Source: an uncultured Alphaproteobacteria bacterium
GTDB lineage: Bacteria > Pseudomonadota > Alphaproteobacteria > MPNO01 > UBA2964
Assembly (NCBI GenBank): GCA_951812775.1
Contig: OX638326.1
Coordinates: forward strand, 880,335-944,334
Direction of reading: 5' to 3'
Length of the DNA stretch: 64,000 nucleotides
The notes beneath the pieces are model-generated. The model was given only the letters and a program-made list of their open reading frames with translations. It had not been told where the DNA came from and made no database searches. Each line of letters begins with the position of its first letter. Position 1 is the stretch's first letter. Position numbers and translations under genes: made by a program. Shown one piece after another: positions 412 to 54,666 of this stretch.

Positions 412-1131
412 ATGTACAATGGTTGCATAAGTATTTCTACATTAACGCAACCCAAGGATACGACTCTCGTCGATCACATTATTGCGCGTTGGGCCAATCA
501 CTCTGATCATTCAGCAGCGGGAGCATATTCCCGAAAAGAACTGGCGCGACGGTTTCTTTTGGGCCGGTCGCTAATACGCAACGTACTGGCGCGTAGTAGC
601 TTGATGCCGAATTGCGACTACGAATTTGTGGCCAATGACAAAGGCAAGCCATTTATCAAACTGTCATCGGGCGAAATTGGGCCAGCTATTTCCATAACTC
701 ATAGCAACGGAATGATAGCGGCAGCTGTTACATCAATCGGCGCTCTTGGCATCGACATGGAATTTCATCGCGCCAACCGCTCATTTAACGCGATAGCGTC
801 TTATGCGTTTGGTCCGCAGGAGACAAAGATCGCAAGCCAATCAATCGATAACTTCTACAAGATTTGGTGCCTGCGTGAAGCAATGAGCAAAGCAACTGGA
901 AAAGGCCTGGAAGAAGCAACAGACGGTGTCGACACAGTAGACAAAATGCCGATGGTTGGCGCATGGAAATCGTCGATTGAGACTGAGGAATGGGGTTTCG
1001 CCCTTCTCACGCCATCGAGAAGATATAGCCTCGCAATCGCCATAAAATGCGCAGCGGAAACCGCCAGCACGAAATGGAATGAGCGTTCATTGAAATTCGA
1101 ACAGTTAGAATTTTCTGATCTTATTTCCTGA
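412..1131 (+). CDS. 4'-phosphopantetheinyl transferase, Sfp type
   Basis: This cytosolic enzyme would move the 4'-phosphopantetheine arm of coenzyme A onto a carrier-protein serine, activating polyketide, peptide or fatty-acid synthases. The 239-residue protein has the usual signatures: KPFI at about 79-82, an ISITHS block at 93-98, the Mg-binding GIDME at 113-117 and WCLREAMSKATGKG at 152-165. Its length is normal for the family. The ATG at 412 has only a weak GGAA upstream, so a slightly later start is possible. No synthase gene is visible nearby, so the target carrier protein is unknown. A decayed copy of its 3' end lies at about 2055-2256. Confidence 0.85.
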   Translation: MYNGCISISTLTQPKDTTLVDHIIARWANHSDHSAAGAYSRKELARRFLLGRSLIRNVLARSSLMPNCDYEFVANDKGKPFIKLSSGEIGPAISITHSNGMIAAAVTSIGALGIDMEFHRANRSFNAIASYAFGPQETKIASQSIDNFYKIWCLREAMSKATGKGLEEATDGVDTVDKMPMVGAWKSSIETEEWGFALLTPSRRYSLAIAIKCAAETASTKWNERSLKFEQLEFSDLIS

Positions 1132-1137
1132 CCTGGT

Positions 1138-1932
1138 CTACAAGCTAGGCTTCCGTGCCACGACGCAAACTAGCGGTCGCGCATGAGAGGCCTTTACAGG
1201 ACGACCAAGCATTTCCAATACGCCAAAGTCGGGACGAGACCATGGAGAAAAAGGCGTCAACACATCTGAGCTATCAAATTCAAACCCAATGTCCCGGAGC
1301 AGGGTCAAATATTCCTCCGCAGACTTTTGTGTTTTCATAGGGTGTCGAAAAAACAATCGGACCCACCACGAATAAATAAACAACCTGCAGGATTCCGTAA
1401 AAAGCAATCTACCGCCAGGCGCCAAGACTCGGAGGAACTCTTTTGCCGCTAGTTGCTGCTCCGTAAAATGGTGAAAACTCTGATGACAAAACACCGTATC
1501 AATAGATTCATCGGGTAGATCAATCTTTGACGCATCCCCGACTCTTATTTCGGCGGGACAAGAACATCGTTCTACGAGGGCTTCGCCACGCTTAACTAGG
1601 TTGGCGTCTATATCAATTCCGAGAAGAGATTCCGGACGAAGATGTTGGTCTATAAAGGGAAAAGCGTAGCCTTGACCGCAACCGATATCCAAGACCCGGC
1701 CAAAGTCGCGACTTCCGCGCAACAAGGTTTCCAGATCAGCCATCGTGCCAGGCAAAACATGCCTTCGCCACATGGCAGTACCAAGAAACCAAGTCCCAAT
1801 CCGCGTTTTTCGGACCCATTCTTCGGGACCCTTCGCGATAGAATGGTTTAATGCGCTAGTCTGATTGCTTCGATCACTCAAAATACTGAACCAACAGGCG
1901 GGTACGAACCAAATTCCCAGTTCGGTGAACAC
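1138..1932 (-). CDS. class I SAM-dependent methyltransferase
   Basis: The protein has a Rossmann-type methyltransferase core: motif I VLDIGCGQG at about residues 80-88, an acidic LGIDID at the end of strand 2 around 104-109, and a LPDESIDTVFCHQSFHHF block (motifs II/III) near 143-160. The substrate cannot be told from sequence. The start used here is a GTG at 1932; the first 35 residues resemble nothing I know, so a later start is possible. It lies tail to tail with the phosphopantetheinyl transferase, six bases apart, and is followed on its 5' side by a decayed duplicate of that transferase. This suggests local rearrangement around the gene. Confidence 0.75.
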   Translation of the reverse strand: MFTELGIWFVPACWFSILSDRSNQTSALNHSIAKGPEEWVRKTRIGTWFLGTAMWRRHVLPGTMADLETLLRGSRDFGRVLDIGCGQGYAFPFIDQHLRPESLLGIDIDANLVKRGEALVERCSCPAEIRVGDASKIDLPDESIDTVFCHQSFHHFTEQQLAAKEFLRVLAPGGRLLFTESCRLFIYSWWVRLFFRHPMKTQKSAEEYLTLLRDIGFEFDSSDVLTPFSPWSRPDFGVLEMLGRPVKASHARPLVCVVARKPSL

Positions 1933-2054: not shown

Positions 2055-2256
2055 TTCATAAAAAAGCCAGCACATCACCCCTGGACGGTGCGTGGAAATC
2101 GACATTAATAGCAGAGAATGACTATCAGCCCTTTTCACGCCTGTAGAAAATTACAGCTTCGCCTGCGCTGTCCACGTTGCCGAGCGTACCAGGTTTAAAA
2201 ATACAGGATATGAGCGCGATAAGTTATTGCCCCCTGACAACGGAGGATCTCATTGA
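2055..2256 (+). pseudogene. decayed 3' fragment of a second phosphopantetheinyl transferase
   Basis: In one frame, bases 2078-2120 read SPLDGAWKSTLIAENDYQ, close to VGAWKSSIETEEWG in the intact transferase upstream. After a frameshift near 2120 the next frame reads ALFTPVENYSFACAV, matching ALLTPSRRYSLAIAI, and runs to TGA at 2254-2256. The DNA also matches over short blocks (GG[T/C]GC[G/A]TGGAAATCG and GCCCTT[T/C]TCACGCC). No start codon or GIDxE / REA..K core is recognisable upstream, so only the C-terminal part survives. This stretch otherwise holds no gene. Confidence 0.55.
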
Positions 2257-4305
2257 CTAGCCTTGCCAAAGTTGTTCGGCCCAACTGACTAATTCAGGCG
2301 GCAAGCACCACCAGCGCATCAAGCGCAACGCCGCCGTTTTGCCGATTAAGGCCTTCGCGCTGGTCTCGTCCAGTGTTGGTGCAGCGAAAGCGACATCGCG
2401 ATAGAGTTCCAGTGCAACGCCCCCAGAGCCAAACATTACCAGCGGACCCATCTCAGGGTCCCGCAAAGCCCCGATCACCAATTCGACCTCGCCCGAAACC
2501 TGCTCGGCGACGAGAACACCCTCCAAAGCTGTTCTCGGCGCATTCGCGGTGACATTTCGGCGGATCATTGAAAACCCCTGTCGCACTGAGGCAATGGTGT
2601 TGTTGTTCAAAAGCACACCACCAACATCAGATTTATGGGTCAGTTCAGCGCCTACTACCTTGAGGACGACCGGCATACCAATTTTACGGGCGATTTCCGT
2701 CGCCTCCGCGGCACTGGTCGCGAGGTTTTCCATCGGGGTTTTGAGTCCATAGGCACGGATAAGTTTCTTGGAGTCGATCTCTGACAGGGGCATCCGTCCG
2801 GCATGCGTTGCTGCCCTTTTGATTGCATGTTCCACCGCTGCGGGAATGCGCGATACCTTTTTCGTAGTGCGCTTTTTACGATTTTTTCGTTCGGCATAGC
2901 TCGTCACTGCGCGAATGGCACGGAGCGCTTTATCTGCCTCCTGCAAAAAAGCGACATTCCGGAATCCGTTTCTAATATCGCGGCTATACTCGTTCATGCT
3001 ATGCGAGATCATCGTGACATAGGTGATCGGCTTACCGGCTTTCTTCGCCAGTTTGTTGACCGCACGAATATACTCAACCTTGCGTTCCGCGCCCGGCGCC
3101 CGGGGAATTTCCTCCTGTAACATCAAGGTATGAATACCCGGGTCATCAAGCAGCGCCTTGACGCAGTTGATATATGTCTCTTCGCTGTTGAGAGCGGCAA
3201 AGCCGGAATCAAGGGGATTGCCAATGATCGACCCGACACCGAGCAGTTCACCAAGCCGACGTTTGGTTTTGGCTTTCAAAGGGGGAAATGACAGATTGTT
3301 TGTTTCCGCCTGATCAAGCAGCAACCCCCGTAAGCCGCCAGAGAACGTTATCGCCCCGATGCCATTTCCCTTGGGCAATTGGGCGTGCAGAAAATACTCA
3401 GAAGCTTCGACGACGTCATCCAGGTTAGACACCCGGATCACCCCGGCATCACCGGCGATGGCATCAAAGGCGGCGATTGAGCCAGCCAGCGCACCGGTAT
3501 GTGCCATTGCAGCCGCTCGCCCGCTATCAGACGTTCCCAATTTCAAAACGATGACCGGTTTACCAACCGATCTGGCCGCTTCACAGGCCGCCAGAAAATT
3601 TTCCGAGTCGCGGACAGATTCAAGATAGAAAACAATAACCTTGATCTGCGGGTTGGCCGCAAAATACTCAATATAGACTGCCGTCTTGAGACCAGCTTCA
3701 TTGCCACTGATAACAATGTACCCGACATCCATGCCGCGCTCTTCCAACGTGCGTTTGAGCGCCATGACCAGACCGCCGGACTGACCAACAATCGCAACAG
3801 GTCCTGGCTCGGTCCGGAGCGTCCGATTATCGACCATGGTCACTACCCTGTTGCCGCCGTTGAAATTGGCGAGACAGTTGGGACCGGATACCGCCAGACC
3901 GGTCTCGCGGATAGTGTCGGCAAGCTCCTCGCCAAGTTTTATCGATTTGTCATCTGGAAGTTCACCGAACCCGGACGAAATTATCGTGGCACTGCGCGCG
4001 CCCGCAGCGGCTGCCTTTTTCAGCGTCGACGAAACAAAACGGGCGGGCACGAGAACCAGAACATGATCAGGTTTCTCGGGCAAATCAGCTAATGAGGCGT
4101 AACACTTAACGCCCCAAACCTGATCTCGATTTGGATTAACCGGATAAACAGCCCCTTTAAAGCCATAGCGATTGAGGTTGTTCCAGCTGCGTTCGGCCCA
4201 GTTTCCCGGTTTATCACTTGCCCCGACAATCGGGATATTACGCGGATTGAGAAGCGCCTCGATATCGGGGCGCTTCCGCAATCGACCTGATTTTTTTACC
4301 GCCAT
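2257..4305 (-). CDS. ferA: NDP-forming acyl-CoA synthetase, feruloyl-CoA synthetase (FerA) type, C-terminus damaged
   Basis: The 682-residue protein follows the order of ADP-forming acyl-CoA synthetases: a CoA-binding Rossmann domain (IPIVGASDKPGNWA, residues 25-38), succinyl-CoA-ligase-like domains with a conserved AMAHTGALAGS segment, then an ATP-grasp domain beginning about residue 485 (MPVVLKVVGAELTHKSDVGG). In known sphingomonad pathways this class converts ferulate to feruloyl-CoA; the adjacent hydratase-lyase supports the same role here. The last about 20 residues are aberrant: after LIGKT the expected family ending, NGGVALDALVVLAA then TGA at 2294-2296, is present but in another frame. 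Roughly 55 residues that normally lie between are missing, so an internal deletion near 2335-2340 appears to have shifted the frame. Activity is doubtful. Confidence 0.75.
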   Translation of the reverse strand: MAVKKSGRLRKRPDIEALLNPRNIPIVGASDKPGNWAERSWNNLNRYGFKGAVYPVNPNRDQVWGVKCYASLADLPEKPDHVLVLVPARFVSSTLKKAAAAGARSATIISSGFGELPDDKSIKLGEELADTIRETGLAVSGPNCLANFNGGNRVVTMVDNRTLRTEPGPVAIVGQSGGLVMALKRTLEERGMDVGYIVISGNEAGLKTAVYIEYFAANPQIKVIVFYLESVRDSENFLAACEAARSVGKPVIVLKLGTSDSGRAAAMAHTGALAGSIAAFDAIAGDAGVIRVSNLDDVVEASEYFLHAQLPKGNGIGAITFSGGLRGLLLDQAETNNLSFPPLKAKTKRRLGELLGVGSIIGNPLDSGFAALNSEETYINCVKALLDDPGIHTLMLQEEIPRAPGAERKVEYIRAVNKLAKKAGKPITYVTMISHSMNEYSRDIRNGFRNVAFLQEADKALRAIRAVTSYAERKNRKKRTTKKVSRIPAAVEHAIKRAATHAGRMPLSEIDSKKLIRAYGLKTPMENLATSAAEATEIARKIGMPVVLKVVGAELTHKSDVGGVLLNNNTIASVRQGFSMIRRNVTANAPRTALEGVLVAEQVSGEVELVIGALRDPEMGPLVMFGSGGVALELYRDVAFAAPTLDETSAKALIGKTAALRLMRWWCLPPELVSWAEQLWQG

Positions 4306-4328: not shown

Positions 4329-5192
4329 CTATTTCGCCTTGTTGCGCCGTTCAAAGTGACCGAGACCAGGACGGTAACTTTTCTCATCCAGGAACTGGCT
4401 CATCCCCTGCCCCCTGCTGTCTTCCTTGTCGATGAATTTGAGCGCATCGCTCTTGGCGTTGAGATAATCCGCCGCCTCAGGCTCGTTCATGAAGCGTACG
4501 GCGCGGATGGCTTCCTTGGTGTATTTCACGGCAGCCGGACTCTTCTGCTGCATCAGTCGCGCGAGCTTCATCACTTCTGATTTCAGCTTGTTTGCCGGAA
4601 CCGATTTATTGACCATGCCGATTTCCATCGCCCGTTTGCCCTTAAACGGTTCGCCCGTCGTCGCGTAATAGATGGCATCGCGTAACCGCATCATCTGTCC
4701 GACATTCCAGCTGACAATGCCACCCGGAATTATCCCCCAATTGACTTCTGACAGACCAAAGACTGCGCTATTTGACGCGATAGCGAAATCGCAGGCACTC
4801 ACCTGGGTGAAGGCGCCACCAAAACAGAAGCCATTGACCATCGCGATTGTCGGTTTGGGAAATTTCGACAGTTTTTGCCAGCGCCAGTCATTGGAAGCCC
4901 TGCGGGCTTTCGCCCGTGCAGCCGGATCGGTGGCGGTTCCCCTGAAATACAGCCGAATATCCTGCCCGGCGCAAAATGCTTTGCCAGCGCCTGTCAGCAC
5001 CAGCACATCTGTGTGCGGATCGATGGACAGATGGTCTATCGCATCATTCATATCGAGATGGAGTTGCGGGCTCATCGCGTTCCGCTTCTCCGGCCGGTTC
5101 ATAATCAGAAATGTGACCCCTTTATCGCGTTCAATCTTCACGGTCTCGAATGTTGGATCAACGATCTTGGGTGCTGCTTTTGTTGCCGCCAT
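4329..5192 (-). CDS. ferB: hydroxycinnamoyl-CoA hydratase-lyase (feruloyl-CoA hydratase/lyase)
   Basis: This crotonase-fold enzyme would hydrate feruloyl- or coumaroyl-CoA and split it to vanillin or 4-hydroxybenzaldehyde plus acetyl-CoA. The sequence resembles this subfamily more than general enoyl-CoA hydratases: LIMNRPEKRNAMSP near residue 30, GAGKAFCAGQDIRLYFRG, KPTIAMVNGFCFGG, and FGLSEVNWGIIPGG carrying the catalytic glutamate. The start chosen is ATG 5192, because GGGAGG stands correctly ahead of it; an upstream in-frame codon at 5207 has no such site. It precedes the NDP-forming CoA ligase by 23 bases, the same ferB-ferA order known in Sphingobium. It lies about 100 bases downstream of the RND pump on the same strand. 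Confidence 0.8.
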   Translation of the reverse strand: MAATKAAPKIVDPTFETVKIERDKGVTFLIMNRPEKRNAMSPQLHLDMNDAIDHLSIDPHTDVLVLTGAGKAFCAGQDIRLYFRGTATDPAARAKARRASNDWRWQKLSKFPKPTIAMVNGFCFGGAFTQVSACDFAIASNSAVFGLSEVNWGIIPGGIVSWNVGQMMRLRDAIYYATTGEPFKGKRAMEIGMVNKSVPANKLKSEVMKLARLMQQKSPAAVKYTKEAIRAVRFMNEPEAADYLNAKSDALKFIDKEDSRGQGMSQFLDEKSYRPGLGHFERRNKAK

Positions 5193-5294
5193 AACCTTGC
5201 CTCCCAAAAATAGAATTTATATCGGGGCAATTGTCGGCAATTTCACTCCGGGAAACAATGCGACCCGGCAAAATAATTAGCGATTTTGCAGAAT

Positions 5295-8200
5295 TTAAGC
5301 CTCTGCTGATTTACCGAAACGTTCACTCATACGCTGAATGACGACATACAGCACGGGAACGAACAACAAGCCAATAAAGGTCGCCGAAACCATCCCCCAG
5401 AATACCACAGAGCCAACCGAGATTCGGCTCGCCGCCCCGGCGCCTGATGCAAATAGAAGGGGCATTACACCAAGAATAAAGGACAAAGCGGTCATCATTA
5501 CCGCCCGGAAACGAAGCCTCGCGGCTTCCATAGCAGCTGCTTCAATACCTAGCCCGGCCTCGCGGCGTGTCTTGGCGAATTCAACGATCAATATCGCGCT
5601 TTTGGACGTCAAACCGATCAACATGACCAACCCAATCTGGGCATAGAGATTATTGACCAGATGCGGCAAAAGCCAAATTGGCAACAGGGCACCAAAAGCT
5701 GCCAAAACAACAGAGAGAACAACAGACACGGGTGTCGTCCAACTTTCATACTGTGCCACGAGGAACAGATAGGCAAAAATGAGTGCGAGGACAAAAATCG
5801 CGATGATCAGCCCGCCAACTTCGAGTTCCTGCTGCGTCGTGCCGGTCCAGGCGATTGTGTAATTGTCAGGCAGCTTTTCGCGTGCCGTACGTTCCATTGC
5901 CGCAATGGCATCGCCGGAGCTCGCGCCCGGTGCAGGGGTGGCGTTCAGCGACGCGCTCTTGAACAGGTTATAACGTTTGATCGATAGCGGTCCGAGAACC
6001 GACTTTACCTGAACCAGCGCCTGCAGCGGCACCATGTCGCCGTTGGCGCTCCGAATATAGAGACGGTTGATATCCTCTATTGTATTTCGGTAACGGGATT
6101 CTGCCTGAATGATGACGCGATAGACTTTGCCATAAAGATTGAAGTCATTGATGTAGCTAGAGCCAAATTGCGCCTGCAGCGTGGAGAAGACCTCTGAGAG
6201 GGGAATACCGAGAACCTGCGCTTTGTCGCGATCCACTTCCAGAAATAGCTGCGGGACATTTGCAGAGTATGTCGTGAAGACGGTCCTAAGTTCAGGCTGT
6301 TGATTGGCCGCAAAGACGAGGCTGCGTGGCGCGGTGGCAAGGGCCTGCGGGGATTGACCGCCGATATCCTGAACCTCTGCTTCCAAGCCGCCACCCGTGC
6401 CGAGCCCCATGATAGGCGGCAAAGGAAACGCAAATGCGTTTGCTGCAGGCACGGAGAAAAGACGTGCATTGGCCTGTCCTAGAATCGCCTGCCAACTCGT
6501 TTGCGGTGTCGTTCTCTCATGCCACGGTGTGAGAATAGGAATTAACAACGACGAATTTGATGCCGCCCCTGATAACAAGCTAACGCCGGGCACCGCTATA
6601 ACGTCCGACACGCCCTCAATATCCCGCAATGAAGCCGATAATTGTTTGGTAACCGCGTTTGTACGCGCCAAAGATGCCCCCGCCGGTAATTGCACGTTCG
6701 CAAATAAAACGCCCTTATCTTCAGTTGGCAAAAACCCGGTGGGTGCGTTGATAAACAAATACCCCGTTCCAGCGACAAACCCGACAAAAGCAACAAGTGA
6801 GATAAATAATTTACGGACCATTCCACCGGCGATCCAAACATAGCTGCAGCGTCCTCGATCTACTGCGGCGGCAAACCATTTCAAAGGCCCACGGGGTACC
6901 CCTGAGCCAGACCGCAACGCAATCGCACAAATTGCTGGTGCCAGCGTCAGCGCATTCAGCGAGGACAACACAACAGCTGCACAAATTGTCAGCGCAAACC
7001 GGGAATACAGGGTGCCCGTTACACCGGGCATAAATGAGACGGGAACAAAAACAGCCAGCAACACCAGGGTTGTTGCGATCACCGGCCCTGTCACTTCGCG
7101 CATTGCAGCTTCAGTCGCGGCTTTGGCGTCTAACCCTTCATCCTGCATAAAGCGCTGAACATTCTCGACAACAACAATGCTGTCATCAACAACTACTCCG
7201 ATAGCCAGAATAAGGGCGAACAAGGTGATCAAGTTGACCGAAAACCCGAGCAATGAAAGAAAAGCAAATGTCCCGATAAGCGAGACTGGTATGGCCAGCG
7301 TCGGCACCAGGGTGGAGCGCCAATCCGACAAAAACAGAAATGTCACGGCAACGACAAGCGCAAAGGTTATGAAAAGTGTTTCCACAACCTCATTATTAAT
7401 GGATGCCCTAACCGCGCGGGTCGTATCATAGATGAATTTTATATTCGACATCTGGTGGAAAACGGCTCTTTAGACTCTCAAGCTCGGCATAAACCTTGTC
7501 AGCAACCTTGAGGGCATTGGCGCCGGGGGATTGATAGACGGCTATTGCCGCTGAAGGTTTGTTATTGAGTGTCGCTTGCGAGCTATATGACTTTGAGCCC
7601 AATTCAATTCGCGCAACATCCTTAAGTCGTACAAATGTTCCACCTTTGTCTGCGCGAAGAATAATATTGCCAAACTCCTCGACCGTCGCCAGGCGACCTT
7701 TGGCTTGAATTGAAAATTGAAATTGCGGCGCGGTCTCATAGGGTGGTGCACCAAGTTGGCCTGCTGTCGCCTGAATATTCTGTTCATTTATGGCTGTCCG
7801 AATGTCACTCGTCGTCAAATTGAGTAACGCCATACGATTGGGATCAAGCCACACCCTCATCCCATAATCCAACGCACCGAATTGCGATACGCTGCCAACA
7901 CCATTAATCCGGCCAAGCGAATTCTCAATATTAATCGACGCGTAATTACTTAGGAAAAGAGCATCACGCGATCCCTTTGGCGATAACAGGTTGACCACCA
8001 TGAGCATGCTAGTCGATTGCTTTTGCGTCACAACACCGTTGCGGGTTACTTCCTGCGGCAGTTGCGAGGTCGCCGTTGCCACGCGATTTTGAACATTGAC
8101 GGCAGCAATATCGGGGTCAGTACCGACCCTAAAAGTAACAGTTAAATCGTAACTGCCGTCATTTCCGCTGGTCGAGGACATATAGAGCATGCCATCCACC

Positions 8201-8415
8201 CCATTGACCTTTTCCTCAATCGGTGCGGCGACGGATTGCTCCACTGCAGAGGCGTTGGCACCGCTATAAACTGTTGAGACTTTGACTTGTGGCGGCGCAA
8301 TTTCAGGATATTCAGCGACCGGAAGGGAAAGAAGCGCGATACCGCCCGAAAGCGTTATCAAAACTGCGATCACAATTGCGAATTTGGGCCGATTTATAAA
8401 GAAAGAGGAAAACAC
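5295..8415 (-). pseudogene. RND multidrug efflux permease (AcrB/MexB type), one frameshift
   Basis: Two adjoining frames together give about 1,045 residues, the normal length of a hydrophobe/amphiphile exporter permease of the inner membrane. The first half starts GTG at 8415 (FSSFFINRPKFAIVIAV..., first membrane helix) and contains the porter domain; it ends YKIHL at a TGA. The second half begins with KFIYDTTRAV and includes the helix-4 LFALILAIGVVVDDSIVVVENV with the paired Asp residues of the proton relay. The join needs one A removed from the AAAA run at 7437-7440. The permease starts three bases after the adaptor stop. A pump with this break would be inactive if the sequence is right. 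Confidence 0.85.
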
Positions 8416-8418
8416 AAT

Positions 8419-9460
8419 TTACCCCTTCGTCGCAGAAACGGGATTTACCACCATATTGGGCCGTACTTTCTGCACACCCTCGACAATGACACGTTCACCC
8501 GTCACTAACCCGGACTTGATGACCCAGTCAGCCCCCGATTGGCGTGCCGTTTGTACCCGGCGCACAACAACTTTGCTTTCGGATTAACTAGGACCGTCAC
8601 AAACTGTCCGGGAAGCAACACGCCTTTGGGGTTAGGAAAACTCGCCCGAATGGCCACGGTGTCGGTCGCCTGATCAACTGTTGGCGCTATATAGTCAAAC
8701 CGTCCTTCCCCTTCATAGGCAGAACCATCAGAGAGAAGAACTGTCGGAACAAAGGATGGCTTCTCTAGATTGATCCCGCGCTTGCGAGCTTCGATAAGAA
8801 TTTTCTCGCTGACACCAATGGTGACGTGGATTGGGTCAATACTGGTTACCGTCGCTAAAGGCTCGCTGTCAGAGCCCACCAGATTGCCGACGCTATAGCG
8901 TACCTTGCTGATGCGCCCCGTCAAAGGGCTGACAATTTTGGTGTATCCCAGGTCCAGTTGCGCGGCCCTTAACTCGGCCTGTGATTTGAGCACGTCGGCT
9001 TTTGCGTTCGCCAGCGCGGCCCTCGCTTCATCTAGTTTAGCCCCCGAAACGACACTGCGACCAACCAGCGCTTTCTTTCTACGAAAATCAGCCGCCGCGT
9101 TTATTTCCGTAGCACGTGCGCGTGCCAGCTCCGCGCGCCGTTGTTCTACGACAACTTGATAGGGAGCCGACTCAATTTCGAAAAGTTTTTGGCCTTTGGT
9201 AACGGTTTGGCCGTCCACAAATGTCGTGCTTCCAGAACACCTTTGACCCTCGCGCGTATATCAACAGAATTTACGGCTTCAACGCGTCCGATAAAATTAC
9301 TGGTTCTGGCGACCTCTTTTTCGCGGACGGTGTCTACAACAACACTCGGGATCGGCCGAGCGCCACGCTTGTTTTGAGCATCTGCGGGAGACGCGAGAAA
9401 CCCTATAAGCGTGACGAAACTGACTATCGCTGCTACAGATCGAAATTCTATGTGGCGCAT
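8419..9460 (-). pseudogene. RND periplasmic adaptor (membrane fusion protein), two frameshifts
   Basis: Three frames in series make one AcrA-type adaptor of about 345 residues. The first starts ATG 9460 with AGAGGCAGAGAA ahead of it and encodes a signal peptide (SFVTLIGFLASPADAQ) and the start of the lipoyl/barrel-sandwich domain (VDIRARVKGVLEARH). The second begins FVDGQTVTKGQKLFEIE and carries the coiled-coil hairpin and beta-barrel. The third reads KVVVRRVQTARQSGADW and ends NMVVNPVSATKG at TAA 8419-8421. The breaks are a missing T (A on the plus strand) at 9219-9221 and a missing A at 8572-8574, both in short homopolymers. It would link the pump to an outer-membrane channel; no TolC-like gene is in view. 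Confidence 0.8.
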
Positions 9461-9463
9461 TTC

Positions 9464-9500
9464 TCTGCCTCTAACCTTTAATAGAAGAATTAGAGGCAGA
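9464..9500 (-). promoter_or_regulatory. perfect 11-bp inverted repeat over the adaptor gene's leader and ribosome-binding site
   Basis: TCTGCCTCTAA at 9464-9474 is perfectly complementary to TTAGAGGCAGA at 9490-9500, with a 15-base spacer. The arm nearer the gene ends three bases before the ATG at 9460 and contains the Shine-Dalgarno-like AGAGG. It could be an operator for a TetR-type repressor, as is common for RND pumps, or an RNA hairpin that hides the ribosome-binding site. No regulator gene lies beside it. Confidence 0.5.
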
Positions 9501-9541
9501 TTAGCCGACATTCAAACGACATGCATTTGGTAACTGAGGCG

Positions 9542-10175: not shown

Positions 10176-12494
10176 ATGACGCGCTATTCGATCAGCCAAC
10201 CTGTAACCCAGGTTGAAGCACCGCGTTTGCTAAAAGGCGAAGGCCACTATACCGACGACGTAAAACTACCTTTTGAATGCCACGTGGTATTTCTGCGCTC
10301 TCCTCATGCGCACGCCAACATTGTTTCCATCAACACGGGGGCCGCCAAACAGCAGCCCGGCGTCATCGATATTTTCACTGGTGACGATTGCGCAGAGGAC
10401 CATGTCGGCCCGGTCGCAGGCAACGCACCACCCAAACGGAGCGACGGAAGTCCGGGGTTTCGTCCCATACGCGAGCCCATGGCACGCACCCGTATCACTC
10501 ATGTTGGACAGTTGGTTGCGATGGTTATCTGCGAGACGATCAACCAAGGCAAAGATGCAGCCGAAGCCATTGAGGTGGAATATGAAATTCTGCCTGCAGT
10601 GATCGATCCTGTCGCTAACAGGCAACCCGACGCACCGCACCTCTACGAAGGTGGCTCAAACAACGAAGCCTTCACGTCCCAAAAGGGAGACGCGGAAGCA
10701 ACCGAAGCAGCGCTCGCGGCGGCACCACATACTGTCAAAGAGACCATGCCTATAACGCGGGTTGCGGCAAATACGATGGAACCCCGTGCTGTCGTTGCCA
10801 GTTATGACCCCGGCCGGGAACATTTTACGGTTTATGCCTGTCAGCAACGCCCATTTGTCTGGCGAAATATGATGACCAAAAAGATGTTCAACATCGAAGA
10901 AAACCAGATGACTGTGATCGCTGGCGATGTCGGCGGGTCATTTGGCATGAAGGGAGGACTGACACCGGAAGTACCTCTCGCCGCTTGGGCGGCAAAACGC
11001 GTTGGTCGCCCGGTGAAATGGGTCTGTGAACGCAGCGAAGGCCATATTTCAGATGATCAGGCCCGCGACGTAACTATTTCAGGTGAACTTGGTTTCGATG
11101 ATGAAGGTAAATTTCTGGCCTATCGTGCCAAGGCCAACGCCAATGTCGGCGCCTTCCTGTCCATGAACGGCTTTGGAACCCCCAACGGGGCCGCAAGCTA
11201 TCTCTGCAGTACCTATGACATGCCAACAGTGCATGGACATTCCACGGCGACTTTCACCAATACCGTGCCAATGGCTAATTACCGGGGCCCATCGGGGACG
11301 CCGGGCAGTTATGTTCTGGAGCGGTTGATCGATCTCGCCGCAAAAAAACTCGACCTCGATCCTTCGGAAATTCGTCGCCGTAATTACATTCCGGCGGATG
11401 CCATGCCAGCGAAGCTGCCTAATGGTCAAACCTACGATTGCGGTGAGTTCGAAATCGTTATGGATAAATGCCTTGAGCTGGCGGAATATGACAAAATTGC
11501 CGAGAGACGGGCTGATGCCGAGGCCAGAGGCATGCTCTATGGCGTTGGCGTATCATCGAGCGTCGACCCGTCGGGCAGCCCCGCCCCCGAAGCGGCTGAG
11601 CTTCGTTTTGATCCCGGCGGTACTGTCACCGTAATGACAGCCTCTACAGCTGGTGGACAGAGCCATGCGACGATCTATACGCAGATCGTTTCCGAAACTT
11701 TGGGCATTGATGCTGAAAAAGTACGCGTAGTCGAAGGCGATACCAGCCAGCATAGTTTTGGGTCAGGCACTGGTGCCGCGCGTACAGCAACGATCTGTGG
11801 CAATGTCGTTCTTCTTGCGGCAGAGAAAACCCGAGAGAAAGCAAAGAAGATCGCAGCGCATATGCTGGAAGCCGCCGATGACGATATCGAGTTTGACAAT
11901 GGTGAGTTTAAGGTCGCGGGCACTGATCGAAGCGTGTCGCTTGCTGACATTATAGATGTTGCTTTTGAGCCCAAAAAAGTCCCGCCCGGCATGGAGTTTG
12001 GTCTCTATGAAACCGCCAGCTGGTCACCTGAGACCACGAATATCCCCAATACCTATCATGTCTGCGAAATGGAAATTGATCCCGAGACAGGCACCAACCA
12101 GATCGTCCGGTACGCCGCTGTCCACGATGTCGGCGTTGAATTGAATCCGGTTTTGGTGGACGGGCAGGTCATTGGCGGAATCGCACAAGGTGCGGGTCAA
12201 GCATTGATGGAAGAAATGGTTTACGATTCAGACGGCCAAGTCGTCACAGGCTCCTTCATGGACTATTGCATGCCGCGGGCCTCTGACTTTTGCGAATTCA
12301 AACTTGATCGACACCCGGTTCCAACAGCGACAAACCCGCTCGGCGTAAAAGGGGCAGGAGAAGGTGGCACAGTCGGCGCACTGGCCGCCGTCATGAATGC
12401 TATCAATGACGCGCTGGAACCACTTGGTGTGCATAATTTGACAATGCCCGCGACACCTCAACGGGTGTGGAAGGCCATTCAGGAAGCGAGTTGA
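10176..12494 (+). CDS. molybdopterin-dependent dehydrogenase large subunit (xanthine dehydrogenase / CoxL family)
   Basis: The 772-residue protein matches the large, molybdenum-cofactor-binding subunit of aldehyde oxidase/CO dehydrogenase-type hydroxylases. It has the N-terminal a/b hammerhead domain (EAPRLLKGEGHYTDD), GDVGGSFGMKGG at about 249-260, NYRGPSG at 369-375 where the active-site loop sits, and GAGEGG near 726-731 holding the catalytic glutamate. The loop is not the AYRCSFR of true CO dehydrogenase, so the substrate is probably an aldehyde or N-heterocycle. The FAD and 2Fe-2S subunits that normally complete the enzyme are not adjacent: upstream is SlyD, downstream a convergent MFS gene whose stop lies within two bases. 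The partner subunits must be encoded elsewhere. Confidence 0.85.
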   Translation: MTRYSISQPVTQVEAPRLLKGEGHYTDDVKLPFECHVVFLRSPHAHANIVSINTGAAKQQPGVIDIFTGDDCAEDHVGPVAGNAPPKRSDGSPGFRPIREPMARTRITHVGQLVAMVICETINQGKDAAEAIEVEYEILPAVIDPVANRQPDAPHLYEGGSNNEAFTSQKGDAEATEAALAAAPHTVKETMPITRVAANTMEPRAVVASYDPGREHFTVYACQQRPFVWRNMMTKKMFNIEENQMTVIAGDVGGSFGMKGGLTPEVPLAAWAAKRVGRPVKWVCERSEGHISDDQARDVTISGELGFDDEGKFLAYRAKANANVGAFLSMNGFGTPNGAASYLCSTYDMPTVHGHSTATFTNTVPMANYRGPSGTPGSYVLERLIDLAAKKLDLDPSEIRRRNYIPADAMPAKLPNGQTYDCGEFEIVMDKCLELAEYDKIAERRADAEARGMLYGVGVSSSVDPSGSPAPEAAELRFDPGGTVTVMTASTAGGQSHATIYTQIVSETLGIDAEKVRVVEGDTSQHSFGSGTGAARTATICGNVVLLAAEKTREKAKKIAAHMLEAADDDIEFDNGEFKVAGTDRSVSLADIIDVAFEPKKVPPGMEFGLYETASWSPETTNIPNTYHVCEMEIDPETGTNQIVRYAAVHDVGVELNPVLVDGQVIGGIAQGAGQALMEEMVYDSDGQVVTGSFMDYCMPRASDFCEFKLDRHPVPTATNPLGVKGAGEGGTVGALAAVMNAINDALEPLGVHNLTMPATPQRVWKAIQEAS

Positions 12495-12495
12495 T

Positions 12496-13740
12496 TCAGG
12501 CGCGGACCAGCCGACCAGGCAGCACATCGCGAAGACGATAAATCAAGTAGATCACGAGAACCACGTTCGCGGCATTAAAGGCAGCACCAACGAGGAACGG
12601 GGCCGTGTATGATTTGGTAAGATCGAACAGATACCCGCCCATCCAACCGCCAACTCCCATCGCCAAAGCACCGACAAAGAAAACAATCCCCGTCCTGCGG
12701 CCAATTTCCCCAATCGGCAGATGATCCCGTATCGCGATAGTATAAACTGGAAAGAGCCCGCCATAACCGAGGCCAAACAGGGCTGCCACGACATAAAGCG
12801 CCCAAAGTTCATGGGTTATTGTGAAAACCGTCAGCATGACTGTCTGCGCGACGGAGAATATGAGAAGCGCCCGCATGCCGCCCCAACGATCTGACAAAAG
12901 ACCAAGGACGACGGCACGGCTAATAAACGCGCATAGCAGCATTACAGATTGCACCTCGACAGCACTTTGAATGGGGAAACCACGATCCGTCACGAAGGAT
13001 ACGAGATGACCAAGTGGCAGCGCCATGGCGATACAGCACCCGAAGATCGCAAAACACAGCCCGTACTGGATACCAGTATTTGAGATTGGAGAAACCGGTT
13101 TTCCAGAATAGGTGCTTTTGGTACCGGTCGGCTTTGGCAGCAGGGGTTTGGGCGGTTGCGGTTTGTGCCGCACGACCAGACATAACGGGAGCATGACGCA
13201 CAGCGCGAACACGCCGTACCAGAAAAACATATCCCGCCAGCCAATCTCGATCATCACATAACCAAACACCGGCAACCAAACGATGCCTGCCAATGCCTGA
13301 CCGCTGGAAACTATACCGACCGCTTTTCCGCGATGTTCAGAATACCAGCGCGCGATATTCGCAAGCACTGGCGCTGCAAGAGCCCCCTGCCCTGATAGGC
13401 CAAACATGATGAGATAAATTGCGTATAGCTGCCATGCGGTGCTGATCTCACTCACAAGCGTTGCGCCCGCGCTCAACATGACAGTGGCCAGCACAGCAGG
13501 AACGCCGAATCCCCATCGATCGACAATCCGTCCCATAATGAGGCCGCCAAAGCCCGACCCGACAAATTGCAGTGAAAACGCCAATGAAGGCACTTCTCGC
13601 GGCCAGCCGAAATCAGTTACCATATCTTTGAGCGCGACAACGATCATGAACATTGCACCGCCGGTAATAAACAGCATGGATACCGAGCCAATTAAAACGA
13701 GGGTACGTCGGCGTGCGGCTTTGGGGTCTTGCTCAGCCAT
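12496..13740 (-). CDS. MFS transporter, oxalate/formate-antiporter-like
   Basis: The 414-residue protein has about twelve hydrophobic helices in two halves separated by a polar central loop (RHKPQPPKPLLPKPTGTKST, near residue 195). The first half carries the MFS loop-2/3 pattern GLIMGRIVDRWG. Overall it resembles the carboxylate-transporting OFA/monocarboxylate group, so an organic acid is the likely substrate, but this is inference. It is convergent with the molybdopterin dehydrogenase and ends within two bases of it; the pair may therefore share a terminator region rather than a promoter. The start is ATG 13740. Confidence 0.8.
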   Translation of the reverse strand: MAEQDPKAARRRTLVLIGSVSMLFITGGAMFMIVVALKDMVTDFGWPREVPSLAFSLQFVGSGFGGLIMGRIVDRWGFGVPAVLATVMLSAGATLVSEISTAWQLYAIYLIMFGLSGQGALAAPVLANIARWYSEHRGKAVGIVSSGQALAGIVWLPVFGYVMIEIGWRDMFFWYGVFALCVMLPLCLVVRHKPQPPKPLLPKPTGTKSTYSGKPVSPISNTGIQYGLCFAIFGCCIAMALPLGHLVSFVTDRGFPIQSAVEVQSVMLLCAFISRAVVLGLLSDRWGGMRALLIFSVAQTVMLTVFTITHELWALYVVAALFGLGYGGLFPVYTIAIRDHLPIGEIGRRTGIVFFVGALAMGVGGWMGGYLFDLTKSYTAPFLVGAAFNAANVVLVIYLIYRLRDVLPGRLVRA

Positions 13741-15399: not shown

Positions 15400-15903
15400 T
15401 TAGGCGGCAGCCTCATATCGAGGTCGCCGTACGCCATAAAGATTCATTCCTTCTACACGGATCATACGGACCTCATGTTCGCGGCGCGAGGAATGCAAAT
15501 CTCCTTCGTTATAGAGATGAGCGGTCCCCGTTGGCAGTTCATATGATTTAACCTTTACGACTTTACCCGGAGTCTTACCTTCGGGTTCTTCAACGCAATG
15601 CCAGTCTGTCATCTCGGTAATCCCGGCAGCGATACCATAGATTGCCCAGGTCAGACCGTGGCCATGCGGAAGACCTGTCTCAGGTGCCGCAACGTGAACG
15701 AAGATACAGAAATCAAACTCCTCATCCTCGTAAAGAACCTGTCTTGGGACATCATTGTCAGGGCCAAGATGTTCAGCGACGAAGTCGTCATCCTGACAGG
15801 CTTTTTCAACAATCTGGCGTACGGCGTGTCGCCCCACCGCACCGCGATCTTCTGAGAGTGCGCCACGACAATCCTTCACCATTTGATCAAGCGTGTAAGC
15901 CAT
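15400..15903 (-). CDS. COG5553-type cupin-fold metalloprotein, paralogue B
   Basis: A 167-residue paralogue of the next gene downstream, with the same MAYTLDQM start, a GLPHGHGLTWAIYGIAAG motif in place of NPHDHGPSW (keeping two His), GTAHLYNEGDLHSSRRE and a closing RMIRVEGMNLYGVRR. The family is predicted to bind a metal in a beta-barrel; the substrate is unknown. It starts at ATG 15903 with AGGAGGTCACCTT ahead. A 52-codon ORF lies just upstream on the same strand, and a DUF4197 gene before that, so all four may be co-transcribed. Confidence 0.75.
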   Translation of the reverse strand: MAYTLDQMVKDCRGALSEDRGAVGRHAVRQIVEKACQDDDFVAEHLGPDNDVPRQVLYEDEEFDFCIFVHVAAPETGLPHGHGLTWAIYGIAAGITEMTDWHCVEEPEGKTPGKVVKVKSYELPTGTAHLYNEGDLHSSRREHEVRMIRVEGMNLYGVRRPRYEAAA

Positions 15904-49481: not shown

Positions 49482-49762
49482 ATGGAAACAATCATCTATC
49501 CGGGCAGCGTTACCCTGCTGGCAACGCTGCTTTACCTCCTGACAATGATGAATGTTGGCCGTAATCGGGGAAAACACGGTATTGAGGCGCCCGCAACAAC
49601 CGGCAATATAGATTTCGAATGTGCCTACCGGGCACAAATGAATACGCTGGAACACATGGTTTTCTTTCTGCCGTCGTTGTGGCTTTTTGCCTACACGGTT
49701 TCGGCGGAATGGGCCTGTTGGTTGGGCTTGTGTGGGTCGCCGGACGAACACAATATGTCATT
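49482..49762 (+). pseudogene. MAPEG family membrane protein, N-terminal part cut by IS
   Basis: ATG 49482, after GGGGAAAATC, starts METIIYPGSVTLLATLLYLL, then KHGIEAPATTGNIDFECAYR with the family's conserved NxxE/R region, MNTLEHMVFFLPSLWLFAYT. A missing G near 49702-49708 then shifts the frame to GGMGLLVGLVWVAGRTQYVIG. At 49763 an insertion sequence interrupts the gene; the remainder resumes at 51050 with PIGYITEPKKRAPG after the target duplication. MAPEG proteins are four-helix membrane proteins of glutathione and eicosanoid metabolism. This copy is broken twice. Confidence 0.82.
49759..49762. repeat. target-site duplication, left of IS copy A
   Basis: CATT here is repeated at 51050-51053, directly beyond the right end of the insertion sequence, showing transpositional insertion into the MAPEG gene. 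Confidence 0.85.
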
Positions 49763-51049
49763 GGACACCTCGAAGAACGTTCGGTTTGGCCGCTTGCGGC
49801 GTGATTTGACCGGGTGGGCGCGTCTGAGTGTCGGTTTTTTCGAGCCGTTTTGCGTCGATTTGATCGGTTTAGCCGGTCGAACCGGCCGTTCCGGCGTCAT
49901 GTGGGCGCACTTCGCCCCTGGAGCCAGAGGAAACGGCGCATGTTATACGCCAGATTGGTCATGCCGATCTTGGCCTCGGCCCGGGCGATGCCGATGGTCC
50001 GAACCGAGAGCGCCATCAAGCCTTTCTGATGGGCGAAGACATGCTCGACGGCGGAGCGTACCGCCGAGCGCGCCGCGTTGGCCTTGGCCAGGGTCGCCGG
50101 CATCGGCTTGCCGCGCGGCTTGCGGAAGTGGATCTGGGAGCGCTTGCCTTGGCGCGCCAGCATCTTCTCGTTACGCTTGGACCGATAGGCGGTATCCGCC
50201 CAGACCGGGCTCGCCGTGTTCTCCGGATCGATCAGACCGGCGAGCTGGCGGCCGTCATTGGCGGCGGCATCGGTGACGCGCCACTTGCGGATCAACCCGT
50301 GCCGCCGGTCCGTGGAGATGTGGTTCTTGTAGCCAAACGCCGGCACCATGATCTCCGGCCCCTTGGGGTGCCCATCCTCCAGACGCTTCACTCGGCCACG
50401 CTTCATGGTCCAGCGCGCATCCCGGTCTTTCTGGGCCAGCTTGGCCGGCTTGTCCTTCCACTCCTCTGGCACCTTGCCGGCCTTCAACGCCACCTTCTCC
50501 GGAACGCTGTTGCGCTGCCTGGGCGCCGCGACGATCGTGGCATCGACGATCTGGCCCGACAGCGCCAGGTAGCCATGGCCGCGCAGGTGTTCGTCGAAGC
50601 GATCGAACAACGCCTCGATCGCCTTGGCCTGCACCAGCAACTCACGGAACAGCCAGATCGTCTTGGCGTCCGGCACCCGGGCGTGAAGCCCCAGGCCCAG
50701 GAACCGCATGAAAGACAGCCGGTCGCGGATCTGGAACTCGGTTTGATCATCCGAGAGATTGTATAGTGCCTGCAACACCAGGATCTTGAACATCAGAACG
50801 GGGTCATAGGGAGGCCGGCCACCCTGGCGCCGGTCCGAGCGACGTAGCGCCCGGATCAAGGGCCGGCGAAACAACTCGAAATCGACCAACTCACCAAGCC
50901 GAAGCAACGGATCACCCGCCGCCGACAGTGCCGCGTAACGCTCATCAAGATCGAAAAAACCGGGCTGATCCGACATTCCATCCTCCATCAAGCCGATGAG
51001 AGAAGTGAAGCAGATCATGGCCAAAATGACGAGGTTTTTAGAGGCGCCC
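49763..51049 (-). mobile_element. IS5-type insertion sequence, copy A (1287 bp)
   Basis: Comparison with the copy at 61904-63189 sets the ends. The element runs from GGACACCTCG to GAGGCGCCC, with imperfect terminal inverted repeats (GGACACCTC against GGGCGCCTC, 7 of 9 bases). It is flanked by the direct repeat CATT at 49759-49762 and 51050-51053; removing it restores a continuous MAPEG reading frame (YVIGYITE). It differs from copy B by one T in a T run near the left end and by a T/G at about 51036. Such near identity points to recent transposition. Confidence 0.92.
49897..50976 (-). CDS. IS5-family transposase, copy A
   Basis: A 359-residue DDE transposase. It starts MSDQPGFFDLDERYAALSAA with GGAGG ahead at 50976; an upstream in-frame codon at 51024 lies further into the terminal region. 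The N-terminal domain continues RQGGRPPYDPVLMFKILVLQ; catalytic core parts are SGQIVDATIVAAPRQRNS (first Asp), SPVWADTAYRSKRNE (second Asp) and AVRSAVEHVFAHQKGLMAL (Glu), the Y-(2)-R-(3)-E-(6)-K-like signature of IS5. The frame is intact, so the element may be active. Confidence 0.9.
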   Translation of the reverse strand: MSDQPGFFDLDERYAALSAAGDPLLRLGELVDFELFRRPLIRALRRSDRRQGGRPPYDPVLMFKILVLQALYNLSDDQTEFQIRDRLSFMRFLGLGLHARVPDAKTIWLFRELLVQAKAIEALFDRFDEHLRGHGYLALSGQIVDATIVAAPRQRNSVPEKVALKAGKVPEEWKDKPAKLAQKDRDARWTMKRGRVKRLEDGHPKGPEIMVPAFGYKNHISTDRRHGLIRKWRVTDAAANDGRQLAGLIDPENTASPVWADTAYRSKRNEKMLARQGKRSQIHFRKPRGKPMPATLAKANAARSAVRSAVEHVFAHQKGLMALSVRTIGIARAEAKIGMTNLAYNMRRFLWLQGRSAPT

Positions 51050-51167
51050 CATTGGCTATATCACGGAGCCAAAGAAGCGTGCGCCCGGTCTAATCATCGG
51101 CATGATCATTCAGGTGAGCTTGTTCATCGGTGCCGCCATTGGGATCGGTCAGCTTTTATTACGCTAA
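51050..51167 (+). pseudogene. MAPEG family protein, C-terminal part beyond IS
   Basis: After the CATT duplication the frame reads GYITEPKKRAPGLIIGMIIQ, then the final helix FIGAAIGIGQLLLR and TAA at 51165-51167. It fits directly onto TQYVI at 49762 once the IS is removed. Confidence 0.82.
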
Positions 51168-51796: not shown

Positions 51797-52766
51797 ATGC
51801 GCATAATTCGATTTGCGCTAATTACGTTATGCGTTCTATTGCCTGGAACGACATACGCGTTTGACAAGTTTGTCGCCCTCGGAACAGCATCAACTCGGGG
51901 AACCTATTACCCGGTGGGGCAAACGCTATGCAAATTTATCAATGCGGGCCGTCTCGAGCACCGTGTCCGGTGCGTCGCCTACAGCACGGGCGGTTCTGTC
52001 TATAACTTCAGGCCCTGGCGTCAGGTGAACTGGACATAGCGATAACCCGCGCCGACCTGGCCTATAAGGCTTATAAGGGTCTTGGAGAGTTTGCCGATAT
52101 CGGCGCTAACAAAAACTTGCGAACAGTTTCAAATCTCTACGACACGCCCGTCGTCGTTACCGTACACAAAGATAGCAGTATAAAGACCTTTGATGATTTC
52201 AAAGGCAAACGAATCAATGTTGGCAACCAAGGTTCCGGGAAAAGAGTGATCGCAGACGAGTTCTTCAAAATTCTGGGATGGAACAACTCGTTGTTTGCCA
52301 GCGTCACGGAGTTGGGCACGGTTGGCATGGCTAACGCGTTTTGTGAGAAGAAAATCGACATCATGATGGAGGCAATTGGGCTGCCCGCCAAACTTTATGA
52401 TCGCGTTACACAGAAATGCGGTGGCGTCTTTATCGACATTCCTGCAAGTCTGATAGCAAAATACATCAAACAGAATCGTTTCTTCGTTAAAAGCAAGCTT
52501 TCGCAAAATCTAAATCCACATGCCACGCGTGACGTTAATACAGCGTATTAATGACCCTCAGTCGCATTGCACCAAGAACAATCAACGTGGTTGCCAAAGC
52601 GATTTTCGCCGATTTAGAAAGCTTTCAGAATAGTCACAACGCACTGAGTCTTTCGAGCCACCCCACGATGCTACATGAGGGTATTCATGTACCCTTTCAT
52701 GCTGGTGCAAAACAGTATTTTACTGCAAATGACCTGCTGTCCGCAGACGGCGGAATTCCGAGATAA
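51797..52766 (+). pseudogene. TAXI-family TRAP substrate-binding protein, two frameshifts
   Basis: ATG 51797 begins with a signal peptide (FALITLCVLLPGTTYAF), then FVALGTASTRGTYYPVGQTL and VRCVAYSTGGSVYN, the TAXI start. A missing base near 52007 sends the frame to a TAG; the correct next frame reads LASGELDIAITRADLAYKAY and continues KGKRINVGNQGSGKRVIADE to TAA at 52549-52551. A second shift near 52540 leads to MTLSRIAPRTINVVAKAIFA and the C-terminal HPTMLHEGIHVPFHAGAKQY. Together it is a typical 320-residue periplasmic binding protein, now broken. No TRAP membrane subunit gene is adjacent. Confidence 0.8.
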
Positions 52767-52769
52767 ATC

Positions 52770-54666
52770 ATGATTAGTCTAGTCGAGATTTTGACAATCA
52801 ATAATAAAGACAAGTCCGCTCGGAGACTTGTGTCCCCGATTGCCAGATTGTGCACAATTCTTCCGGTCCTTGCCCTTACCAGCTGCATTACTCTTGATCA
52901 GTTGGACGTAACGAGTTCAGGCACAAAAGAGCCAACGGCAGAGACACCAGCACCTACGGAAACAAATCAACTATCACAGAAAGGCGTCGAGGCACTTCGC
53001 GATAACAAATTCAAGGAAGCCTCTGTTTACTTCAACCGGGCCCTCAAACTCGACATCCAAAATTCTTATCTGCAACTCCTGAATGCAATGGCCTATCACA
53101 TGCTGGCAGTTCGTTCGGATACCACCCAATTTGCACTGGCTGAGCAGGGATATAATCTGGCCATCAAGTTTGACCCGTCGAATTGGATTGCGCGCTACCA
53201 GCTCGGGTTACTTCATCGTGACCAACGCCGTTTTGACAAGGCTAAGACTTCCTTTGCTGACGCCTTATTCTATCGCGACGATGATCCGGACATACTCTCT
53301 AACCTTGCCGTATCAGCTTATTACAGCCGGTGCCCTCAAACGGCTTCGCGAAATAGAACCTAATTCTGTACGAACAACCAGGACGTCGTCTCTTGTAAGC
53401 GCGGCTCTCGGTCAGGAAGAGGACGCCAATAAATTTCTGGCGTTGTATCAGGAAACCAAGCCGCGCCGAGGCCGGTTCATCCATTTAACCCGACGGCTGC
53501 AAGACTGGAAACGCGTCCATGCACGAACTCAAAAAGCTCGCCTGCGTGCCCCTTTACCAAAAGCACTCAAGAACAAGAATATCGAGCTTACCCAGTCACC
53601 CTTTGGTGACTCCAGTCAAAACCAGGATAGTGGGTCACCCTTCGGCGGGCAGGATTCCAACACGGCGGCTGCCGACAGTACTGCGGCAGGGGCGAGCAAA
53701 GAAAAGATGGTGGTGGTCGACGTCGTTATCATCAGCTCCCGTGAAGACATAACAACAGCCAAAGGGGTAAACCTGCTCAACGGGTGGACGTTACAATTCG
53801 AGGGAAACAGAAATGTCGTCGATGGGACGACAGAAACGGACAATGTTCTGGCGACCTCTTTTGCCACGACATTAACCAAAACACTTACCCTGCCAGCGAT
53901 CACATATTCTCTCAACGTGGCGAATGCTGGTGCGACTCGGAGTGAGATTCTGGCGCGCTCCAGTTTGGTGGCTATTTCCGGCCAAAAGTCTGAGTTTTTC
54001 TCTGGTGAGAACATCAAGGCCGCTACGGTATCAACCACAGCGCAGCAGGGCGCGACAGAGGTGGATAAGGATATTGGTGTCAAATTGGCCGTTACACCTT
54101 CTGTTACCCCTGACGGAAGGGTCAAACTCCAGGTGGAAGTGGAGCGCACCTTTCTGACAACAGTCAGCGCCAACGTTACGTTCAATAACCAGGTAAGAAC
54201 GACAAAGGAATCCGTGAATGCCAACGTCATCATGAACCAAGGCGAAACACTGATCCTTAGCGGTCTTAGCGAGAAAGAAACCGAGAATATTCGCGATGGC
54301 GTACCGATAGTCCAGGATATCCCGGGAATTCAATATTTGTTTTCAAGGGAAACAACGCGAGACTTTAACCGGTCAGTACTTGTACTGCTCACGCCACGCA
54401 TCCCTGAATACACTTACCGCCCCCGCGAAATACGGGAAAAAGAAGAAGCGGCACGCAAAGATGGTGGCAAGGTTTTGAACGAACTTAAGGCGCGCTATAG
54501 CGATTGGTTCCGTCCCTATCCTAACTGGACTTCGGTATTCCATCATCTCCAGGAAAATAGCCTGTACCGTCAATTTAGAACCGGCGACGTTGCCCTGGAA
54601 CGTTGGGATACTCAGAAGCATATCAAAGTGCGGCTGAAAAAAGCCCTCGAGTTCCTGTATTTCTAA
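52770..54666 (+). pseudogene. TPR-secretin lipoprotein (type II/III secretion-like), one frameshift
   Basis: ATG 52770 leads to a lipoprotein signal with LALTSC (lipid Cys near residue 38), a Pro/Thr-rich linker, then TPR-like helices: GVEALRDNKFKEASVYFNRA, YNLAIKFDPSNWIARYQLGL, FDKAKTSFADALFYRDDDPD. A shift near 53335 joins GALKRLREIEPNSVRTTRTS. From about residue 310 a secretin-type domain follows: LNVANAGATRSEILARSSLV, KLAVTPSVTPDGRVKLQVEV, MNQGETLILSGLSEKETENI and SVLVLLTPRIPE. Together it is about 630 residues. Outer-membrane secretins form pores, but no pilus or type II genes accompany it. The pentapeptide gene is 19 bases downstream. Confidence 0.72.

Follow-up and report, generated by a model that had tools for sequence, protein, structure and literature searches.

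The window, by which we mean the whole stretch of 64 000 nucleotides analysed here, corresponds to C1:880335–944334 of a genome that was assembled as a single contig of 4.149 Mb and is 99.58% complete. Near its start lies an open reading frame for a ferA-type NDP-forming acyl-CoA ligase of 682 amino acids (2257–4305, minus strand), the C-terminus of which is truncated and frameshifted. The adjacent gene on the same strand (4329–5207) encodes an intact p-hydroxycinnamoyl-CoA hydratase/lyase of the ferB type; its match to PRK09120 scored 347.1 bits, against a cut-off of 276, in agreement with the earlier note on this DNA, which had called this partner intact. Beyond it, also on the minus strand, lie a split gene for an RND efflux pump (5295–8415) and a broken gene for the HlyD-type adaptor of the pump (8422–9511). 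On the other side of the ligase gene, an aryl-polyene-type island about 18.6 kb long reaches into the window with its right end (positions 1–2256). The breaks in the pump and adaptor genes, and the abutting of the ligase gene on the island, are additions to what the earlier note had described.

The ligase reading frame and the 154-bp deletion

The ligase protein is normal through SAKALIGKT and then continues as AALRLMRWWCLPPELVSWAEQLWQG, its final residues being ...SAKALIGKTAALRLMRWWCLPPELVSWAEQLWQG. The foreign tail, read in a shifted frame, consists of 23 residues (LRLMRWWCLPPELVSWAEQLWQG) and a stop, and occupies 2257–2328 on the minus strand. Translated in another frame, this strand gives ...NGGVALDALVVLAA-stop. 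That frame carries the out-of-frame remnant of the normal C-terminus, GGVALDALVVLAA (2294–2335, minus strand), with the old stop codon TGA at 2294–2296. The remnant matched the 3′ ends of the intact genes of three relatives, namely G001 (32 bp, 97%, E 9e-11), G007 (36 bp, 92%, E 3e-10) and G003 (30 bp, 93%, E 1e-8). Judged by these alignments, it is not a chance resemblance. A ligase reading normally to LIGKT before an unrelated tail, and a family ending GGVALDALVVLA with the TGA at 2294–2296 in another frame, had both been reported in the earlier note; the former was borne out by translation of the ORF and the latter by the matches to the three relatives.

The ligase was searched for in 61 genomes, the window's own included. 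Close orthologues were found in four other genomes: G007 (83%), G003 (81%), G001 (81%) and G010 (70%). When the gap was measured between the same codons against four close orthologues (L045–L048), it was 154 bp in every case. As the deletion comprises 51 codons plus one base, the frame is changed. The earlier note had proposed a loss of about 55 residues; the deletion itself is upheld by the orthologues and paralogues, but its size is 51–52 residues. A single-base frameshift alone was rejected, since the 154 intervening bp are absent.

A scan of public genome contigs gave seven ligase loci. The segment was kept in all seven, and these ligases measured 711–728 residues from the start of the match. 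The second ligase that the earlier note had raised as a prospect is present four times over, as full-length NDP-forming paralogues at C1:1078252, 3541530, 3547702 and 3742708, each ending with a D/E-x-NP motif and then an ALD or VD motif. A natural short form of the family was considered and rejected, the segment being kept in 7/7 of the relatives found and 4/4 of the full-length paralogues, so that the comparison with full-length relatives favoured the earlier note's proposal.

The join of the deletion lies at 2329–2336 (minus strand), within AAAACGGCGGCG at 2340–2329, where the earlier note had placed it. A possible micro-homology there is GGCGGCG (2335–2329), or CGGCGGCG counting the preceding C. 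On the left side of the deletion L045 has ACGGCGGCGGCG, and on the right side L046 and L047 have GGCGGCGTC; the full micro-homology on both sides occurred in no relative measured. At a spacing of 154, no shared run exceeded 5 bp, a length reached by L045, L046 and L047 alike; at the join itself L045 shares GGCGG (5 bp), and L046 and L047 share one base at most. The micro-homology that had been proposed is thus plausible when pieced together from different relatives, but it is incomplete in every one of them. The deletion probably arose through slippage or end joining, with a short GC-rich repeat as its site. With the out-of-frame family ending still readable, the size and place of the event are known to the base.

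Pfam profiles were matched to the 682-residue protein. The CoA-binding domain PF13380 (CoA_binding_2; E 1.5e-23) and the succinyl-CoA-ligase-like flavodoxin domain PF13607 (Succ_CoA_lig; E 5.1e-39) were present, and the ATP-grasp domain PF13549 (ATP-grasp_5) was incomplete, being matched at positions 2–167 of 221 only. The motif AMAHTG with His269 was also present, as in the orthologue L046; by its position, we take it to be the phosphorylatable histidine site. In PMC6388921, the role of a phosphorylatable histidine in a swinging loop is described for the FerA-type enzyme.

In L046, the stretch deleted here runs between Thr659 and the final ALD motif. Asn703 of DVNPF (L046 numbering) falls inside it, and the equivalent of Asp716 of ALDAL is out of frame in the window, so that the ligase ends without the C-terminal D/E-x-NP and the LD motif that follows it. 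By analogy with succinyl-CoA synthetase beta, we presume that the Asn of D/E-x-NP and the Asp of LD bind Mg; a literature search for a Mg-binding role of these two positions found no confirming text. In an alignment with the PDB chain 4xyl_B, what is missing or out of frame here matches roughly the final 60 of its 230 residues. On this comparison, the ATP-grasp unit has lost its end. Because this end is gone, the window ligase is expected to be inactive or at best a partial enzyme: the deletion removed the ATP-grasp end and shifted the frame into the 23-residue tail, so that ATP-dependent phosphorylation of the catalytic histidine should fail and no acyl-CoA should be made.

Three of the four full-length paralogues lie near hydratases, and all three of the hydratases tested scored above the PRK09120 cut-off. 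One of these remaining ligases could serve the kept hydratase-lyase. The genome also has six LigB-type homologues. Among plasmid-borne relatives of the intact orthologue, the best 12 of 481 shared 33–34% identity with it; none of these 12 was annotated as FerA, and those annotated were called 'acetate--CoA ligase family protein'. In the ligase tree the window copy stands beside G007, and in the hydratase tree it is nearest to G002; several supports are low, and the two trees conflict.

Neighbouring genes, soundness of the assembly and age of the break

One inserted base near 7433 divides the pump gene into ORFs 5295–7451 and 7426–8415. The adaptor gene has lost 1 bp near 9219 and 85 bp near 8581. 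In G007 and G003 both genes are intact, the pump (AcrB-type) being one frame of 1038 residues, and the gene order on one strand is HlyD-type adaptor, AcrB-type pump, hydratase-lyase and, last, ligase. We infer that these four genes form one operon that is decaying together. In the window three of the four (ligase, pump and adaptor) are broken and the hydratase-lyase is intact. In G001 the ligase and hydratase are kept, and the pump and adaptor persist as fragments only.

The same locus was compared in three further genomes of the genus, where the hydratase is 93% (G002), 88% (G006) and 90% (G008) identical. Within the contiguous DNA beside it, the ligase and pump were absent from all three; two weak matches (E up to 0.1) were obtained, the stronger being adaptor-like (E 0.015, in G002). 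The best genome-wide ligase match in these genomes had 42–43% identity, and since completeness is 98% for G002, 96% for G008 and 69% for G006, genome-wide absence is less telling for G006. The ligase and pump may have been lost in these three or may never have been present. Several genomes of the genus, then, have the hydratase-lyase but a ligase and pump that are damaged, reduced or missing.

The soundness of the assembly was examined by a survey of frame breaks, in which ORFs of relatives were compared with the window and its left flank, a match being at least 60% identity with E at most 1e-10. In the first set, 66 of 83 ORFs were matched and five were split over frames. Four of these five belonged to the pump and adaptor; the fifth, at about C1:861,548 on the far side of the island, changes frame when compared with G002. 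In the rest of the window, 83 of 116 further ORFs were matched and three were split, all at 51.8–54.7 kb. Unmatched ORFs (17 and 33) were left out of the counts, and a piece as short as the ferA remnant escapes this survey. A generally indel-ridden assembly was rejected, as 5/66 and 3/83 ORFs were split and the lesions were clustered rather than evenly spread.

An assembly or consensus error, with an intact ferA in the living cell, is nevertheless a conceivable source of the deletion, as everything rests on one assembly and the join is GC-rich and repetitive. We regard it as improbable: the genome is one contig of high completeness, frame breaks are few outside some spots, and three further lesions, one of them of 85 bp, occur in two genes upstream of the hydratase. 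A loss of 154 bp is also unusual as a consensus error.

Some other irregularities were seen in the region. When compared with G007, and in the NMT1-like case also with G002, the NMT1-like and secretin-like genes at 51848–54663 fall into several frames, and their identity of 61–87% is mostly below that of their neighbours. Two DDE transposase genes (DUF772 and DDE_Tnp_1) were recognized in ORFs 49897–51024 and 62037–63248; the stretches 49733–51051 and 61914–63184 interrupt ORFs that are continuous in G001.

Selection was assessed with a home-made branch codon model, in which synonymous sites were saturated. The ferA set had 660 columns, one codon of the foreign tail included, and the test was carried out on 658 codons. 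No relaxed selection was detectable on the ligase body, with omega of 0.059 on this branch and 0.072 in the background (2dlnL 0.84), and runs with each of three relatives as the focus were not significant either. The larger pump piece also showed no relaxation (0.029, with 0.032 in the background). In the intact hydratase omega was low and, if anything, higher here (0.021 against 0.009; 2dlnL 2.41, or 3.81 with three taxa).

Up to the join, the window ligase was changed at 8 of 224 columns that are invariant in all others. The same count was 1 of 217 for G007, 1 of 217 for G003 and 2 of 218 for G001; among more distant sequences it was 12 of 228 for G010, and 9 of 225, 6 of 222 and 65 of 281 for three distant relatives. 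With such counts in the more distant sequences, changes at conserved columns do not prove relaxation. The absence of detectable relaxation, together with the readable remnant, suggests that the ligase break is recent.

The same lack of detectable relaxation could be expected if the shortened protein were still functional or had changed its role, for instance as an alpha-like unit working with an ATP-grasp subunit in trans. The CoA-binding and CoA-ligase domains and His269 are intact, split alpha/beta forms exist in the NDP-forming ligase superfamily according to PMC8163506, and the genome has such a split pair at C1:1742933–1744910. Yet the first 167 of 221 ATP-grasp profile positions are still attached, unlike in a natural alpha subunit, and breaks are present in the pump and adaptor too. 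The break also looks too young to have been selected, because a well kept family ending stands behind the out-of-frame tail. We therefore hold a functional short form to be very improbable. On the sequence comparisons it appears very likely that ORF 2257–4305 is a FerA-type NDP-forming acyl-CoA ligase gene in a loss-of-function form, which arose recently through the 154-bp deletion.

The aryl-polyene-type island at the tRNA-Thr site

Downstream of ferA, the window diverges from its relatives. The island (about G000:C1:864001–882590, its right boundary approximate) lies between ferA and a tRNA-Thr gene (tgt) at C1:863925–864000, and begins at the 3′ end of the tRNA. In G003, where the island is absent, ferA is followed by a short spacer, tRNA-Thr and a fumarylacetoacetate-hydrolase-like gene. 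GC content is 49.2% in the island and 52.4–52.9% in its flanks. Near C1:856.6 kb, on the far side of the island, a short-chain dehydrogenase is without its first 63–71 residues relative to L071 and L040.

The part of the island inside the window contains genes for a 4′-phosphopantetheinyl transferase (412–1131, plus strand), recognized by profile matches, and a SAM-dependent methyltransferase (1138–1932, minus strand), which is ApeB-like by type only. Elsewhere the island encodes ApeP-like and ApeI-like dehydratases, ketosynthases, a ketoreductase, a thioesterase, an AMP-binding ligase and acyltransferases, along with LolA-like, MMPL and DUF3261 proteins and a glycosyltransferase. PF22817 and PF22818 were found above the gathering score, together with PF00109, PF13723, PF13561 and PF00501; Ape-type dehydratases thus stand in one cluster with ketosynthases, a ketoreductase and an acyl-ACP ligase, as in aryl polyene gene clusters. 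A homologue of the ApeP-like protein was found in six of the 61 genomes when the window's own is counted, and the other five share only the class; no match to it was found in the eight other genomes of the genus that were searched.

Beside the broken ferA, positions 2082–2162 (plus strand) resemble, in degraded form, a 3′ piece of the phosphopantetheinyl transferase gene. The DNA alignment score was 53, and the best of 1000 dinucleotide shuffles scored 40. A protein-level search for a fragment of this transferase found nothing, and the support comes from the DNA comparison, suggesting a duplicated copy of the gene that has decayed.

The tRNA-Thr site is occupied differently in other genomes. 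G007 has a different insert there, with an MBOAT-type gene and, by ferA, a 41-bp copy of the tRNA end (L039 about 12486–12526; the tRNA-Thr at 15413–15488). G002 has a whole second tRNA-Thr (copies at L069 5525–5600 and 8046–8121) with a 26-residue piece of hydratase next to it. A second tRNA-Thr end beside ferA was not found in the window's genome, G007 alone having one. From these arrangements, this looks like a tRNA-linked insertion site that has been used repeatedly, with cargo differing among genomes.

Its position raises the question of whether the arriving island broke ferA directly, by integration damage, or simply landed in a hot spot next to a gene that was dispensable. The island stands between ferA and tRNA-Thr, where G003 has its short spacer, and no more than about 40 bp separates the deletion from the old ferA stop. 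We consider such damage unlikely. The two joins, of ferA and of the island, are distinct events in position, since between them, on the island side, the old ferA ending survives with its stop; lesions of their own are seen in the pump and adaptor, some 3–7 kb away; and this genome has no second tRNA end by ferA of the kind seen in G007.

The loss of the ligase might also be a consequence of acquiring the aryl-polyene cluster, if closing a competing route of aromatic-acid activation, together with the adjoining pump, benefited a pigment-maker that kept its hydratase-lyase. The kept enzyme would then give 4-hydroxybenzaldehyde, and hence 4-hydroxybenzoate, from the CoA esters of other ligases. 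In PMC8253772, 4-hydroxybenzoate is the predicted aromatic starter of the E. coli aryl polyene pathway. The AMP-binding ligase of the island is weakly similar to the 4-coumarate-CoA ligase model (107.6 bits, below the cut-off of 334.7). We think a causal link of this kind highly unlikely.

Meaning of the loss and comparison with known systems

Relative to its intact orthologues, the ligase gene carries a disabling lesion, as a pseudogene does. This is ordinary pseudogenisation with no new mechanism, in a gene whose neighbours are decaying too and which lies at an insertion hot spot. It offers a clean, young example of gene loss that is useful for metabolic annotation at the level of the genus rather than as a new principle, and the FerA step should not be annotated for this genome from this locus.

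The FerA-type feruloyl-CoA synthetase FCS1/FerA_B3 (PMC6388921 and PMC5863372) has the same three Pfam domains as the window ligase, which also keeps the histidine of the CoA-ligase domain. As in FerA-FerB clusters, a hydratase-lyase gene adjoins the ligase; this neighbour (4329–5207), which matches PRK09120, is the intact partner and distinct from the broken gene. The window ligase differs from the FerA type in that its ATP-grasp domain breaks off at position 167 of the 221 in the profile and is followed by a foreign tail; the comparison with FCS1 is one of domain content. To 4xyl_B, the beta chain of an NDP-forming acetyl-CoA synthetase, the C-terminal domain of L046 aligns over 217 residues (E 5e-45), whereas the window protein is without, or out of frame for, the end of that chain. 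The gene content of the island is much like that of the E. coli aryl polyene cluster, as given in PMC8253772; the island differs in having its own phosphopantetheinyl transferase and MlaC-like and weakly sulfatase-like genes.
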